This document shows positions 2,890 to 29,051 of a DNA stretch of 64,000 bases, one piece after another; within the stretch, counting starts at the first letter, position 1; every line of letters begins with the position of its first letter. The notes under the pieces were generated by a model. The model made no database searches. It saw nothing but the letters and a program-made list of their open reading frames with translations, and was not told the origin of the DNA. The translations under genes were made by a program, and so were the position numbers. This DNA is from Protonemura montana. Its lineage: Eukaryota; Arthropoda; Insecta; Plecoptera; Nemouridae. The stretch is from NCBI GenBank assembly GCA_947568835.1, contig OX387602.1, positions 25,719,021 through 25,783,020 of the forward strand, in the 5' to 3' direction.

Positions 2890-4342
2890 TTCTTCCTCCC
2901 TTATCCCATCCCTTGCCACTACACTGATGGCCGCCATTAATTACACCAGTGACAAATTAACGTGGTGGCGGGATGGTCATCGTCCAGGGGTGGGGAAGGG
3001 GACGAGTAAAGGGTCAACGAGATGACAAACTCGCAGCCCATCCATTTTGTCACTCAGCTCGAGAACTTTTAGAAGCACACAATCAAAACATCACAAGTGG
3101 ATGAGTTGGTTGTTGGGGGAGGGCACGAAGGCTGATAAAGTTGGTATTTCGCACTTTATTTAACATGTTTCGCTGCGGTGTTTCAATAACTTGTGTTTTC
3201 TACACGTGAGAGAAACCTCGGATTTTGCGGTGGCAGTGCGGTTTGTGACCCGACAGTGTTTTCTTTGTCGGGGGTTGGTTTGAGTGCGATGGTGGAGGCG
3301 CCACGCTTGGCAGCCTGCTCGTGAATAGGCGTGGAGAGGAGACGTGGCTTTTCGAGTTTTGATTGATGAGTGTTCTGCAATTCAGGCGCAAGTTGTGACG
3401 TATAGCCCAAAGCGTTCAAAGCAGTGGGATGGCGGTCATTTCATTACAGTGGAGGTGCCGAGTTTTAATTGCTCTGCGGGCTGCATTTAGGGGCAACTGA
3501 TTTTGGAATGACCTGAACGCATTTTTCTCTAAATTAAATGAACGCTTCTTACGTGATCGGCCGTTATTTTGCCATTCAAATAACGGACGCACAATCTAGC
3601 TCGATCGATAGAATAATCAATCTTCTAGATGTGTGATTGATCTGCTAGTCAGAACCGAGCAAGTGTTGAATGTGTTACGTTTAACATGCGGATCAGCAAT
3701 GCAAATGGTTGTCCTCCAAAGAAATGAATGCGCTTGCTTGACCTTTTCAAAGACAGCAGCACACACGCTCGGATTATTCGTAGAATTTACGCAGGAAAAG
3801 AAGCGTTCCTGTTGTAAGCCGATTTCGTGAGATGCCCATTCGAAATGCGGTGGGAAAATAGAATAAAATAAAATACACCTTCAACTTTGCGACTAAATCT
3901 TGCAAACTACTTTCTTTGCCAACAAACTTGCTGAGATAATGAAATCTCTTCCAGGTACGTAACGAATTGCTTGCCCAACTTAATTGCATCGCAAAGTAAA
4001 CTTGCATTTATAGTTTTATGAATCTCTCAGCACAAAGAATAAAAAAGAACGACACGGACCGAAAAAAACCCATTGGCAATTATTTTAATTTTAATGAAAC
4101 ACAGTCCTTGAACCGTCGGCACCCCCGTGGTACATTCAGCGTTGCCCTAGCATCTTTCACGGCCTTACCTAATAGCGCATACAAACGTAAACGGAAAATT
4201 GGAGATTTTTGTCAGCAGTAAACTGCTTTATTGAAATGCAAATGCGGTGTACGCCTCGCTTTCTTCGGCATAAATTGTCTCTGCCATTCTTCTCGCCGAG
4301 TTCAAATTAATTCTGAATTACCATCAATGTGCGAACGCTCTT

Positions 4343-21350: not shown

Positions 21351-21883
21351 AATCTATACGCCGGAGCGTCGCAGGCCGTGCCATCGATATGCGGTACCAC
21401 GGCTGTCGGTGCACCCGTTGGGAATGCCATGTCGGGGACGCCGCGTAAAGCCAGAGCAATTAGTTCGCCGCTGTCCCTCTGGCGACCGGCTGCCCACAAC
21501 ACACGTGCACTTCATTGCTGGGCGACGCCACTTGCAAAAAGTTTAGAGACCGTGTCCGACGCCACTGCATGCATGTGGTGACGTCACACGGTTTAAGGAC
21601 GCCCTCCATTAGGCGGAGGAATTGCGTCTGACAGCTGATGCAGAAGCCAAAAGACAATTAGAAAGAAAAATGAGATCATTTCGTGCATCCCACCATGACT
21701 TGTAGATCTTTTGTTTATTTTTTATTGCGTCTTCTTCATCTCGTTCGAAAAGGCATTTGGAATCGACTATTATTATGTGCAGTATTATAGAAAGAAAAGA
21801 ACATTTCGCGAGGAGAATCTGAAACGGCGAACGATGAGCGGCAGGGGGACGGGGGTTCATGTGATGGAACGATGCTCATCTTC

Positions 21884-22109
21884 AAGATTCGGTATTTCCT
21901 AGAAACGATACGACCGAGAGGAGTGGTTTTCTGAGGCTGTAAGATTTTGTATTTTCTCAAAACTATGCGATCGAGAGGAGTGGTTTTTTGAGACCAAGAT
22001 TCGCTATTTCATCGAGACGATACAACCGAGAGGAGTGGTTTTCTGAGGCTATAATATTCGGTATTTCATAGAAACAAAACGGCCGCGCTGAGTGGTTTTT
22101 TGAGGCCGT
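21884..22109 (+). repeat. Minisatellite, 4 units of about 57 bp
   Basis: Four tandem units begin at about 21,884, 21,941, 21,996 and 22,053 (lengths about 57, 55, 57 and 57). Each has a start related to AAGATTCGGTATTTC, a middle related to CGACCGAGAGGAGTGG and an end related to TTTTCTGAGGC. The core GAGTGGTTTTYTGAGRC is the best conserved part and the rest has diverged. The array is not open in one frame as a convincing repeat protein. It may be a neutral minisatellite or a cluster of binding sites. Confidence 0.85.
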
Positions 22110-25263: not shown

Positions 25264-25267
25264 TATA
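25264..25267 (+). repeat. Left TATA, possible target-site duplication
   Basis: TATA directly abuts the left terminal repeat. The same TATA abuts the right end at 29,048-29,051. Because TATA is its own reverse complement, it could equally be the outer four bases of the inverted repeat. Confidence 0.6.
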
Positions 25268-25770
25268 GGGTCATTCCATATCAAGTGCCCACACTCAAAA
25301 CCTTCACTATCTCAGAACTTGACGAAATTTTCAGGAGGGTTAGAACACCGGAAATAAAAAATCTCTTTTAAAGTTTTTTTCCATACGCCTAGCGGTTTGC
25401 CCGTGGCAGGGGATGGAAAAATAAAATATTTTACTTTTTGCCCCGCACGGCCATTCACTATATTCACTCTAGCGTTTGAACAAATAAACTTAAAACGATG
25501 GGATTAGTTCTAAAATGATAATCGTGCTTTCATTAACAAGAAAAAATGCATAAATTGCTTACTTATCAAGTTTAGGGGTAGAAAAAATCCACCCTTAAAT
25601 TTCAACCCTTAATAACTCGAGAAGTAATTTTTTTTTTTTTTTTTGTTTTGTTGTGAAGCATCTCCTGTCTATTATCTTTCCATGAAAAAAAAATTAATCA
25701 TTAACAGCCGTATGATCAGAAGTTATGAGATTTTTATTGTATAGATGTGTATGAATTTAGAAGTGCTTTT
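25268..25770 (+). repeat. Left terminal inverted repeat
   Basis: Reads GGGTCATTCCATATCAAGTG at the outer end. The first 476 bp (to 25,743) match the reverse complement of the right end with no difference that I can see, including a 17-T homopolymer at 25,628-25,644. From 25,744 mismatches appear and similarity fades by about 25,770. Confidence 0.93.
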
Positions 25771-26367
25771 GCTAAATAGTTTGTTGAGCATGAACCAAAT
25801 TGAATTCAGAAGCATTCGATTATGCTAAGTTTGTCATAGCATAAATAAAGCTTGAAAAGATTTGAATTTGGGATGGAGTCGAGCAATTAAAATTTTATTA
25901 TAAGGATGTGATATTTTTGGGCTTTGTGCTATAAACATGATAATATGTGGCTCTGGTCACGATACTAGGTCTGTGTTTCTGCCGTGCATTATGACCACGG
26001 ATCTGACGAAATTCATATTTTACCTACTTCTATTTAAAGAATCCCACCACGAACACGTGCAGCCCTTGCTACCTGTTTCTCTTTTCAACCCTTATGGCCG
26101 GAAGTTTAGCCGTGAGACAGCGAATTCAGTTGTTTCTGCATTGGTTTCTTGGTCAGTCGCAAAACACTTAGCTCAGTGCAAGTAGACGAGTGATTCGAAG
26201 TTTTCTTTGCATTATTTTTGTGCGTCGTGAATTGAGGGGTGTTAATAATACCGTTGGAAGTGTCTTGTGAACATATTTTTAATTAATAGCAATAGTATAG
26301 TAATAGCTAGTTTATTTAATAGTTATAATCACAGCGTTTAGTTTTGTATATTTTATGTAATTTAATC

Positions 26368-28437
26368 ATGGACTCGTTTACTCGAGCGAAGTGCTGCAAT
26401 CCTTTTAAACACGTTTCCCACACACAGCTGAAGTCTCTCCTCAACGTCCAGCCGTGGATGATTGAAAAGATTTCCTCGATTCCAGTAGGAAGCAAAATCT
26501 GTGCCAAATGTAGGAAAGATTTAAATAACTACGTAAAACCAATCAGCAGCGACTCTCCAGTGACGACGACGACCTCCAGCGATGGCGACAACTCGCAGCC
26601 CGGCTGCAGTGGTGCAAACGCCGAGAGTCAAGCATATTTTTTCCGACAAGACGCTGCTTTGTCTAACATCAACGTGGGCTTGGCGGAGCTAGGGCAATCG
26701 CCCATTGTTAAGAAAAAGTTGGCGCAATCCAGTTATCCCAGGAAGAAATTGAAGAAACTCGAAGGTGCGCTTAAAAGAACCACTACCTCCGACGCTGAAA
26801 GCGACAGTGGCCAAGATTCAGCTGATGGTCGCGAAATGATTAATCAGCTGAAAGAGAAGTTTCACTCGTCCACATCCAACAGCGAGAAAGTGCATGTTCT
26901 AACTGTCCTCCCGAAGAGCTGCTCTGTCCGGCGAACAGTGGCAGAGTTTCAAGCGTCAGAGCGCATGGTCCGCAAGGCAAAGAAGCTCGTCCTGGAAAAG
27001 GGAATTTTGTCAACCCCGAATCCAAAGCCAGGAAAAACAATTGACCGAGCCACAGTTGACCGAGTAAAATCTTTTTACAATTCAGACGATGTGAGCCGAG
27101 CCATGCCGGGCAAGAAAGACTATGTTTCCGTCAAGGAGGCGAGCGGCACTCGAGTGCACATCCAGAAAAGGCTCGTACTCTCAAACCTTAAGGACCTCCA
27201 TACCCAATTCAAGGACAAATTTCCTAATAAAAAAATAGGATTTTCAAAATTTGCAGAGCTGCGGCCGAAGAACTGTGTGTTGCCTGGTGCCAGTGGGACT
27301 CATTCGGTGTGCGTGTGCACTATCCACCAAAACGTCAAGCTAATGATCATCGGTGCCGACTTGACGAAGTTGACAGTGGACCAATCTTATCCGATAACAT
27401 CTTACCACGACTGCCTTGAGCAGTTGGTCTGCGACAGTCCCCTCCCCGAATGCCATCTAGGCGAGTGTGAGGAGTGCCCGGGCATCGAGCCGTTAAAGGA
27501 GCGCCTCACGCAACTGCTGGACGACGAAATGGTGGACAATGTTATCTACAAGCAGTGGGAGAGCACCGACCGATGCACCCTGCAAACGCACATCGATTCA
27601 TCCGAGGAATTCGTGGACAGTTTTTGTGCAAAATTAGTTGCTCTGTGCCGCCACTCTTTTATTGCTAAAAAACAATCTTCGCACCAATCGGACATCAAGT
27701 GCGGTCTCCTGCCCGGCGAGTTTTTGGTGATCTGTGATTTTGCCGAAAACTATGCGTTCGTGCTACAAGACGAGGCCCAGGGGTTCCACTGGAACAATGC
27801 GTCCGCCACCATCCACCCCTTCGTGGCATATTACAAAGAGGGCGGGGAAGAGCGCCACATCAGCTTTGTTGTAATTTCCGAGAGTTTGATCCACAACACT
27901 GTCGCAGTGCATCTATTCATAAAAAAACTCGTGAGCTTTTTGCACAATAAATTTCAGACCATAAAGAAGATGTTCTTTTTTTCTGATGGGGCAGCCTCGC
28001 AATATAAAAATAGGAAAAATTTTGCCAACTTGTGCCACTATCAAAGAGACTTTGGGGCCGACGTGGAGTGGCATTTCACGGCGACGTCACATGGGAAGAG
28101 CGCCTGCGACGGCGTCGGAGGGACGGTCAAGCGGCTGGCAGCGCGGGCGAGTCTTCAGCGCCCCTACGAGTCGCAAATAATAACACCCCGGCAACTCTTC
28201 GATTGGGCGGTCGAAGCCATCCCGACCATCAACTTCACATTCGGAACTATTGAGGAGCACCAAGACACAGAACAGCTGCTAGCCACACGATTTGCGTCAT
28301 CCCGGCCAATTCCCGGCACGCAAAAACTGCATTGCTTCGTACCCGTGTCTGAGCACTCAGTAGCCACGCGGGTGTTCTCCTCCTCGCCGTTGTTCGAAGA
28401 AGCCAGAGTGATAGGTCAGAGTGAAACGAAGAAATGA
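26368..28437 (+). CDS. Transposase, Sola-like DDE/D family
   Basis: Single uninterrupted frame of 689 codons, expected to cut and reinsert the flanking element using its inverted repeats. I start at the ATG at 26,368. The frame is open eight codons further upstream, but those begin at a TTG and not an ATG. Residues 9-52 hold a putative zinc-binding module (C9, C10, H15/H18, C45-x2-C48). A Ser/Thr- and Lys-rich linker follows to about residue 160. C315, C317 and H320 precede a Cys cluster (C349, C355, C362, C367, C370). The catalytic core shows D457 in CDFAENY and D540 in FFSDGAASQYKN. The third acid is probably D581 in HGKSACDGVGG or E629/E630. The order acid, SDG...Q, HGK..DG is typical of a large arthropod transposase family. 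An AATAAA at 28,577-28,582 inside the right repeat may end the transcript. Transposase identity is strong; the superfamily name is less sure. Confidence 0.93.
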   Translation: MDSFTRAKCCNPFKHVSHTQLKSLLNVQPWMIEKISSIPVGSKICAKCRKDLNNYVKPISSDSPVTTTTSSDGDNSQPGCSGANAESQAYFFRQDAALSNINVGLAELGQSPIVKKKLAQSSYPRKKLKKLEGALKRTTTSDAESDSGQDSADGREMINQLKEKFHSSTSNSEKVHVLTVLPKSCSVRRTVAEFQASERMVRKAKKLVLEKGILSTPNPKPGKTIDRATVDRVKSFYNSDDVSRAMPGKKDYVSVKEASGTRVHIQKRLVLSNLKDLHTQFKDKFPNKKIGFSKFAELRPKNCVLPGASGTHSVCVCTIHQNVKLMIIGADLTKLTVDQSYPITSYHDCLEQLVCDSPLPECHLGECEECPGIEPLKERLTQLLDDEMVDNVIYKQWESTDRCTLQTHIDSSEEFVDSFCAKLVALCRHSFIAKKQSSHQSDIKCGLLPGEFLVICDFAENYAFVLQDEAQGFHWNNASATIHPFVAYYKEGGEERHISFVVISESLIHNTVAVHLFIKKLVSFLHNKFQTIKKMFFFSDGAASQYKNRKNFANLCHYQRDFGADVEWHFTATSHGKSACDGVGGTVKRLAARASLQRPYESQIITPRQLFDWAVEAIPTINFTFGTIEEHQDTEQLLATRFASSRPIPGTQKLHCFVPVSEHSVATRVFSSSPLFEEARVIGQSETKK

Positions 28438-28544
28438 GTGAGTAAAAAGAATCTTTGTAGTACTTACACACAATTTTTAAACTGAAAAATTATATAATCT
28501 ATCAATTTACGGGTGAATTGCATGGACCATGCTAACAGACTTGC

Positions 28545-29047
28545 AGAAACACAACTAAATGCACACACATTTATACAATAAAAATCTCATAACTTCTGAT
28601 CATACGGCTGTTAATGATTAATTTTTTTTTCATGGAAAGATAATAGACAGGAGATGCTTCACAACAAAACAAAAAAAAAAAAAAAAATTACTTCTCGAGT
28701 TATTAAGGGTTGAAATTTAAGGGTGGATTTTTTCTACCCCTAAACTTGATAAGTAAGCAATTTATGCATTTTTTCTTGTTAATGAAAGCACGATTATCAT
28801 TTTAGAACTAATCCCATCGTTTTAAGTTTATTTGTTCAAACGCTAGAGTGAATATAGTGAATGGCCGTGCGGGGCAAAAAGTAAAATATTTTATTTTTCC
28901 ATCCCCTGCCACGGGCAAACCGCTAGGCGTATGGAAAAAAACTTTAAAAGAGATTTTTTATTTCCGGTGTTCTAACCCTCCTGAAAATTTCGTCAAGTTC
29001 TGAGATAGTGAAGGTTTTGAGTGTGGGCACTTGATATGGAATGACCC
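28545..29047 (-). repeat. Right terminal inverted repeat
   Basis: Reverse complement of the left repeat. The 476 bp from 28,572 to 29,047 look identical to the left copy, including a 17-A run at 28,671-28,687. The inner edge is blurred to about 28,545. The right repeat also supplies the AATAAA 140 bp downstream of the transposase stop. Confidence 0.93.
28577..28582 (+). terminator. Candidate polyadenylation signal of transposase
   Basis: Canonical AATAAA 140 bp after the transposase stop codon, within the right inverted repeat. The left repeat carries the same hexamer in reverse orientation, so position and not uniqueness supports the call. Confidence 0.5.
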
Positions 29048-29051
29048 TATA
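29048..29051 (+). repeat. Right TATA, possible target-site duplication
   Basis: TATA directly following the right terminal repeat, matching the TATA at 25,264-25,267. If it is a duplication, the empty site would read GTTACAG-TATA-GCGGCC. Confidence 0.6.

Follow-up and report, generated by a model that had tools for sequence, protein, structure and literature searches.

A stretch of 64,000 nucleotides from the plecopteran insect Protonemura montana (assembly GCA_947568835.1, contig OX387602.1, positions 25,719,021 to 25,783,020 of the forward strand; here called the window, with positions counted from its first letter) contains at 25268-29047 an element of 3780 bp that is bounded by long terminal inverted repeats (TIRs) and encloses an open frame for a transposase. 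The question raised by this locus is whether the element is a young and intact DNA transposon, as a first-pass annotation of the window had proposed, and which kind of sequence identity can be used to judge its age. Near-identical full-frame copies at 51 places in the genome show that one founder spread recently. Beside these copies, the genome harbors repeated shorter classes, the main ones of which carry the right half of the element, inverted, in place of the left side. We consider it very probable that the element is a young, intact cut-and-paste transposon and that its right-right palindromes stem from TIR-to-TIR repair and were mobilised by the transposase.

Structure and boundaries of the element

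The two TIRs pair over 476 bp without gap or mismatch, and from the first mismatch at position 477 similarity between the two ends is lost. A separate inverted-repeat scan gave arms of 509 nt at 99%, since it included the palindromic TATA as well as the inner edge where similarity decays. TATA adjoins the element on the left and on the right, and an ATG frame (26368-28437) runs over 689 codons plus a stop. The first-pass annotation had described exactly these mismatch-free repeats, the TATA at both outer edges and the unbroken frame of 689 codons.

All further copies were sought in a genome of 258,480,905 bases in 34 contigs. The same terminal base was found in all 30 best-scored full-length loci, namely the window copy (L032) and 29 others; since the flanks of these copies differ, the boundaries are not due to chance. 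The TIRs had identical boundaries in 30 of 30 full-length loci fetched by score, as is characteristic of cut-and-paste elements with TIRs. A 20-mer of the element end matched the genome 1298 times with at most one mismatch, against 0 matches for the reversed control; among the matches are short diverged relatives as well as end sequences repeated in tandem. The features of the window copy are as follows.

25264..25267, no strand: left target site duplication, TATA (exactly 4 bp in 50 of the 53 family elements checked)
25268..25743, + strand: left TIR, 476 bp, mismatch-free against the right TIR in the end comparison
25744..26367, + strand: left-specific untranslated region between TIR and frame, which probably holds or borders the promoter
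26368..28437, + strand: single-exon transposase frame of 689 aa (top score of 1583.7 in 42 of 66 match rows)
26392..26511, + strand: N-terminal Cys/His cluster C9, C10, H15, C45, C48, conserved with family B, of putative function
27566..29047, + strand: right half, present twice in inverted orientation in the 3304-bp palindromes (27703-29047 in the 2723-bp class)
27736..27738, + strand: D457, candidate catalytic residue 1, at the end of the predicted strand 451-457 (low-confidence models)
27985..27987, + strand: D540, candidate catalytic residue 2, in SDGAA.QYKN (family B conservation, low-confidence models)
28108..28110, + strand: D581, candidate catalytic residue 3, in HGK..CDGVGGTVKR (family B conservation, low-confidence models)
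28572..29047, - strand: right TIR, 476 bp (end comparison)
28577..28582, + strand: AATAAA, a putative polyadenylation-type signal at the inner edge of the right TIR (element position 3310)
29048..29051, no strand: right target site duplication, TATA

Copies in the genome and age of the burst

In a DNA search with the left 505 bp, 40 of 420 candidates were scored; all had 100% identity and 39 reached the top score. In the protein search, 65 of 468 candidates were scored, giving 66 match rows, from which 51 young places with a full frame were counted, the window included. An identical top score is shared by 42 of these places, again including the window. Uninterrupted frames were found at 49 of the 51 places, i.e. 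the 42 with the top score and seven more, one of which matches 686 of the 689 residues; the two broken frames lie at C3:6404537 (one TAA) and C1:9791290 (frameshift). A separate, uninterrupted sister frame is present in L060, an element without a left end. A left-specific 40-mer occurs at 55 genome places, 52 of them exact, and these 52 were assigned to the 51 full-frame places and to C15:4548759, where the N-terminal part is intact and a full match is absent.

The nucleotide comparison covered 34 of the 51 young full-length copies, including that of the window; 30 were chosen by best protein score, and the other four (L056, L061-L063) were known to differ in score or length. Among the 29 other copies of the first set, 19 are letter-for-letter equal to the window copy, and the remaining ten have 8 substitutions and 5 indel columns in total. 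L056, L061, L062 and L063 show 1, 1, 1 and 6 substitutions, with an additional insertion of one base in L056 and of four bases in L062. For three copies (L014, L015 and L026), diverged TIRs were considered and rejected, one-base indels having shifted the ungapped comparison. The sum of 17 substitutions in 33 x 3780 bp corresponds to about 1.4e-4 per site. The mutation rate of insects is near 3e-9 per site and generation, which places the burst at an age of the order of 10^4 generations.

These data support the view that the element is intact, recently inserted and potentially autonomous. The search for further copies suggested by the first-pass annotation thus returned full-length elements with the same boundaries, together with non-autonomous relatives sharing the same ends. 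Its proposal of a recent insertion is borne out by the identity between copies, and its surmise that the element may still be autonomous is supported as a potential. The empty site of the window insertion had 0 matches elsewhere in the genome at up to 3 mismatches. The annotation had also named many diverged copies as a sign of an old element. Such relatives do exist, L053 being 93% and L058 about 89% similar, so the family is old in this genome, though the burst itself is young.

Homogenisation of the TIRs

The identity of the two TIRs, from which youth had originally been argued, proved to be unsafe evidence. Lineage-specific bases at positions 118, 119, 220, 361 and 362 occur at both ends of the same element. 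The sister copy L055, which has both true ends, carries T at 118 on both TIRs, while the sister copy L059 departs from the window copy at 119, 220 and 361/362, in each case on both TIRs, and in addition has private differences between its ends. L063, otherwise a near match of the window copy, carries the alternative base at 362 and likewise at the corresponding position 3419 of the other TIR, and it has 1009G and 3250T in common with L059. Variants that match on both TIRs of one element imply that changes pass from TIR to TIR within the element. With TIRs homogenised in this way, the event dated by the 476-bp identity is the most recent homogenisation in the founder, not the insertion. It is the identity between copies, not between TIRs, that is a valid argument for youth, and the case warns that the identity of an element's two TIRs is no clean clock.

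Target site preference

An exact 4-bp duplication flanks 28 of the 30 best-scored full-length loci, L013 and L021 being off by one base, and, among the family elements both of whose ends can be read, 50 of 53. The latter count treats L053, which has no duplication and stands outside the tally of target motifs, as a failure; it omits L058 (old fragments without a matching end pair), L060 (left end lost) and the family B copies L064 and L065. At the 50 sites, C occurs at -1 in 30 cases (p 4.6e-10) and G at +1 in 31 cases (p 1.1e-10) with a background near 0.20, and the second duplicated base is almost never G (3 of 100 in the symmetrised table). The resulting target motif C|NWWN|G is a preference, not a rule.

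The 4-bp length of the duplication was thereby confirmed. TATA, in contrast, is merely the site of the window copy and no family motif: it is duplicated at 3 of 50 sites, which rejects a TATA-specific insertion, and it adjoins 11 exact ends genome-wide. A duplication of TA alone, permitted by the self-complementary TATA of the window, is excluded by the other copies. In the full-length copy L013 (G000 C4:4164398-4168177), an extra T stands between duplication and element on one flank (CTTT T| against |CTTT), possibly an imprecise junction.

Palindromic derivatives of the right half

Three of the shorter classes are palindromes whose arms were 100% complementary in the representative examined: a 3304-bp class with arms of 1483 bp and a loop of 338 bp, a 3090-bp class with arms of 1467 bp and a loop of 156 bp, and a 2723-bp class with arms of 1346 bp and a loop of 31 bp. 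Their left side being the inverted right side, a simple internal deletion was rejected as the origin of these classes. The arms contain 735-873 bp of the 3′ part of the transposase frame. A right-specific 40-mer marks 138 genome places (at most 2 mismatches). Of the 100 right arms listed among these, 60 make up 30 inverted pairs that fall into discrete size classes, with spacings of 2023 (8 pairs), 2120 (7), 1908 (6), 1539/1535 (6), 1604/1603 (2) and 2230 (1); another 35 are accompanied within 4 kb by a left arm on the same strand, and the last 5 lack both kinds of partner. No left-left palindrome was found among the 55 left arms, the nearest two of which are 28 kb apart.

The junction of the 2723-bp class occurs 9 times in the genome. 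Over the first 1300 bases, the two arms differ at 0 or 1 positions in the fetched 3304-, 3090- and 2723-bp copies except L050 (2718 bp), which has small indels between its arms; L057 shows 2 differences and L054 many. In an alignment of eight palindromes, all 16 arms carry 121T and 230A and 15 of them carry 772C; all three alleles are absent from five non-palindromic elements. Each of the 15 fetched palindromes has its own 4-bp duplication, which implies that the palindromes were transposed, presumably by transposase made elsewhere. L055 is no palindrome but a simple deletion derivative. The arms of the palindrome L054 are mosaic, one arm lacking 772C and carrying other bases, as if it had been converted by another copy.

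A related family without palindromes among listed places

A search with residues 1-283 of the transposase found relatives at 82-92% and a second family (family B) at 41% over that part. Two copies of family B, L064 and L065 (G000 C1:32533784-32537894 and C2:16165603-16169713), are identical over 4111 bp and have TIRs near 480 bp that are 96% alike; their frame of 860 aa is 47% identical to the window protein. The ends of family B and of the window element share GGGTCATTCCAT (the first 12 bases), and a 4-bp duplication is present in one of the two copies, L064 being without it. Two family B 40-mers, N-terminal and 3′, occur at 165 and 164 places, i.e. about 164 places in the genome. Among the 100 listed places of each, both lie on one strand and are 2295 (99) or 2294 (1) bases apart, and no inverted pair was found. 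Palindromes are therefore not an automatic product of this architecture or of the assembly.

The transposase and its class

The N-terminal Cys/His cluster is, judged from its residues, a possible zinc-binding DNA-binding domain. D457, D540 and D581 are all conserved between the window protein and family B. In both structure models, which are of low confidence, D457 and D540 end predicted strands; the next strand is followed by a helix, and D581 is either part of this helix or precedes it by two residues. In the second model, strands and helices follow the order beta-beta-beta-alpha-beta-alpha-beta-alpha known from the core of DDE/D transposases. The places of D457, D540 and D581 would fit a putative DDD-type RNase H-like core. 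The Foldseek matches of the first model, all weaker than E = 0.001, included retroviral integrases among unrelated folds and were not used as evidence. Relatives were not found in viral contigs or in bacterial and archaeal genomes, and the plasmid search gave a single match at E=1.

Concerning the class, the duplications are 4 bp long and AT-rich as in Sola2, with a central WW at 34 of 50 sites, and Sola transposases are of the DDD type. Membership in Sola is possible. Kolobok and piggyBac are contradicted by the target sites, since TTAA is duplicated at 0 of 50 of them; provided that the catalytic residues are chosen correctly, Kolobok is further contradicted by the C/DxxH motif, which was not found between D540 and D581. 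The P superfamily, to which Galileo belongs, is contradicted by the duplication of 4 bp instead of 7-8 bp and by the absence of a P-type domain match: Pfam holds P-type transposase models, and none was among the matches of the window protein up to E = 10.

Comparison with known systems

The nearest known parallels are Galileo and Mu killer. In Galileo, which makes 7-bp duplications (8 bp in P; PMC4168063), copies with two recombinant TIRs are described from Drosophila mojavensis and related ones from D. willistoni (PMC3573991, PMC4168063), and repair of one TIR from the other has been proposed as mechanism (PMC3573991). Galileo and the present family are alike in their long TIRs, which are 98-100% alike within a copy of Galileo, in the recruitment of internal and transposase sequence into extended TIRs (TIR1-F1-F1-TIR2), in the tandem-repeat expansion of ends, seen here in L052, and in a palindromic target motif (PMC3573991, PMC4168063). 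Unlike the present family, Galileo belongs to the P superfamily and makes 7-bp duplications, and reportedly no functional transposase was found in those two genomes (PMC3573991, PMC4168063). Here, the duplications are of 4 bp, 49 frames are uninterrupted, palindrome arms of up to 1483 bp are 100% complementary, and the palindromes have multiplied in discrete classes.

In Mu killer, a derivative of MuDR in maize, part of the transposase gene is likewise duplicated in inverted orientation together with two copies of the same TIR (PMC3440606). It is, however, one locus that silences MuDR (PMC3440606), whereas at least 30 dispersed copies were found here. Sola2 resembles the element in its AT-rich 4-bp duplications and large transposase and differs in TIRs of 12-21 bp (PMC3627910) as opposed to 476 bp. 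Kolobok and KolobokP share 4-bp duplications, ends starting with a purine and, judged by the candidate catalytic residues, a DDD/E transposase; Kolobok duplicates TTAA, unlike the present element, and shares its C/DxxH motif with other superfamilies (PMC9587614). No published paper on this element was noticed, a search that left Repbase and most subscription journals outside its scope, and the family may well be catalogued. The end sequence of the element had two matches in papers, both medical or veterinary and unrelated by title and start of the abstract.

Origin of the palindromes and alternative explanations

In the proposed mechanism, the transposase, with its Cys/His cluster and DDD core, would bind the 476-bp TIRs, excise the element and insert it at C|NWWN|G targets with duplication of 4 bp. 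About 1.5-1.8 kb of right-end sequence may once have been copied to the left side during the repair of a break, a step that would be helped by TIRs identical over 476 bp, and central deletions and amplification would have produced the palindrome classes; copying of short tracts from TIR to TIR would keep the two TIRs of an element identical. One founding right-right event with later central deletions and amplification explains the classes best. Several points weigh against this account. Both ends were seen at only 43 of the 51 full-frame places (34 fetched copies and 9 end pairs 3779-3780 apart), and the 30 copies on which the identity chiefly relies were taken for their best scores and not at random. 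230A is found in the old relative L058 too, so that this allele is not confined to palindromes, and positions 361/362, unlike 118, 119 and 220, adjoin a run of T in which slippage could have occurred in parallel. The two structure models have a mean pLDDT of 42.8 and 35.2, the first with extra strands and with no Foldseek match at E <= 0.001, and the protein has chance-level Pfam matches only and no meaningful PDB sequence match.

The identity of ends and copies could also reflect gene conversion among old copies instead of recent transposition. Homogenisation between the TIRs of one element is indeed visible and the arms of L054 are mosaic. We nevertheless regard this explanation as improbable, for copies that differ in their flanks and in their 4-bp duplications are alike over all 3780 bp, the duplications are still exact in 50 of 53 elements, and the sister copies L055, L059 and L060 stay unhomogenised at about 98.7-99.3%. 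An assembly artefact, in which polishing made the copies alike and false inverted joins made the palindromes, is hardly credible: inverted repeats are a known source of assembly errors, but each of the main palindrome classes is found at several places in separate flanking sequence, the 15 fetched palindromes each have a 4-bp duplication, and family B, which went through the same assembly process, shows no inverted pair among its listed places. Less easily dismissed, if still unlikely, is an independent origin of the classes from many duplications of the right end, of which only right-right products were mobilised or tolerated. In its favour, the junctions differ between classes and a left-left pair is absent among the 55 left arms; on the other hand, the eight aligned palindromes share three mutations absent from five non-palindromic elements (one arm of L054 without 772C), and the simple junctions of the 3304-, 3205-, 3090- and 2723-bp classes appear derivable from one ancestor by central deletions.

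A further question is whether the palindromes act on the family from which they derive. If transcribed, they would form long RNA hairpins against the transposase gene of the element. Transcription from a neighbouring or TIR promoter might thus lead to hairpin RNA over the 3′ part of the transposase and to silencing in the manner of Mu killer, for which we see a rather low probability. The length of frame held by the arms and the anatomy of Mu killer, with an inverted partial transposase between like TIRs (PMC3440606), are in keeping with it, and so is the contrast between 51 full-frame places in the family with palindromes and about 164 in the sister family, with none in 100 listed. Only two families are compared, however, the gap in copy number may have other causes, and 49 intact copies arose despite the palindromes. 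Somewhat more doubtful again is the extended notion that the palindromes are mobile, self-multiplying Mu killer-like silencers, which spread by TIR-to-TIR copying and check the autonomous family, while the sister family would have run about threefold higher.

Older relatives and other repeats

L052 (401-1325), a relative of 925 bp, has a 45-bp terminal unit repeated in tandem at each end, with about 4-5 units on the left and 10 on the right, and its 4-bp duplication is exact. Short relatives of this kind probably account for many of the 1298 matches to the element end. At G000 C13:3530730-3540634, the left and right 40-mers of a sister element lie 9.9 kb apart on one strand; this element was probably split by a later insertion.

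Two repeats apart from the family were noted. Arrays of (TTAGG)n, long examples of which are typical of arthropods, occur internally and far from chromosome ends, e.g. at C1:16525145-16526433, and a 35-mer of this repeat had 11123 overlapping genome matches. The window further contains a tandem repeat with a 57-bp unit at 21883-22106 (about 4 copies, 75% matches).

Significance

Inverted-duplicate derivatives can be generated where one long TIR serves to repair the other. The many identical and intact copies make the family a plausible source of an active transposition system. Two young families with related transposases that start with the same 12 bases coexist in one genome, with palindromes in one and none seen in the other, and this pair opens to direct test the long-standing question whether inverted-duplicate derivatives restrain their parents through RNA interference.

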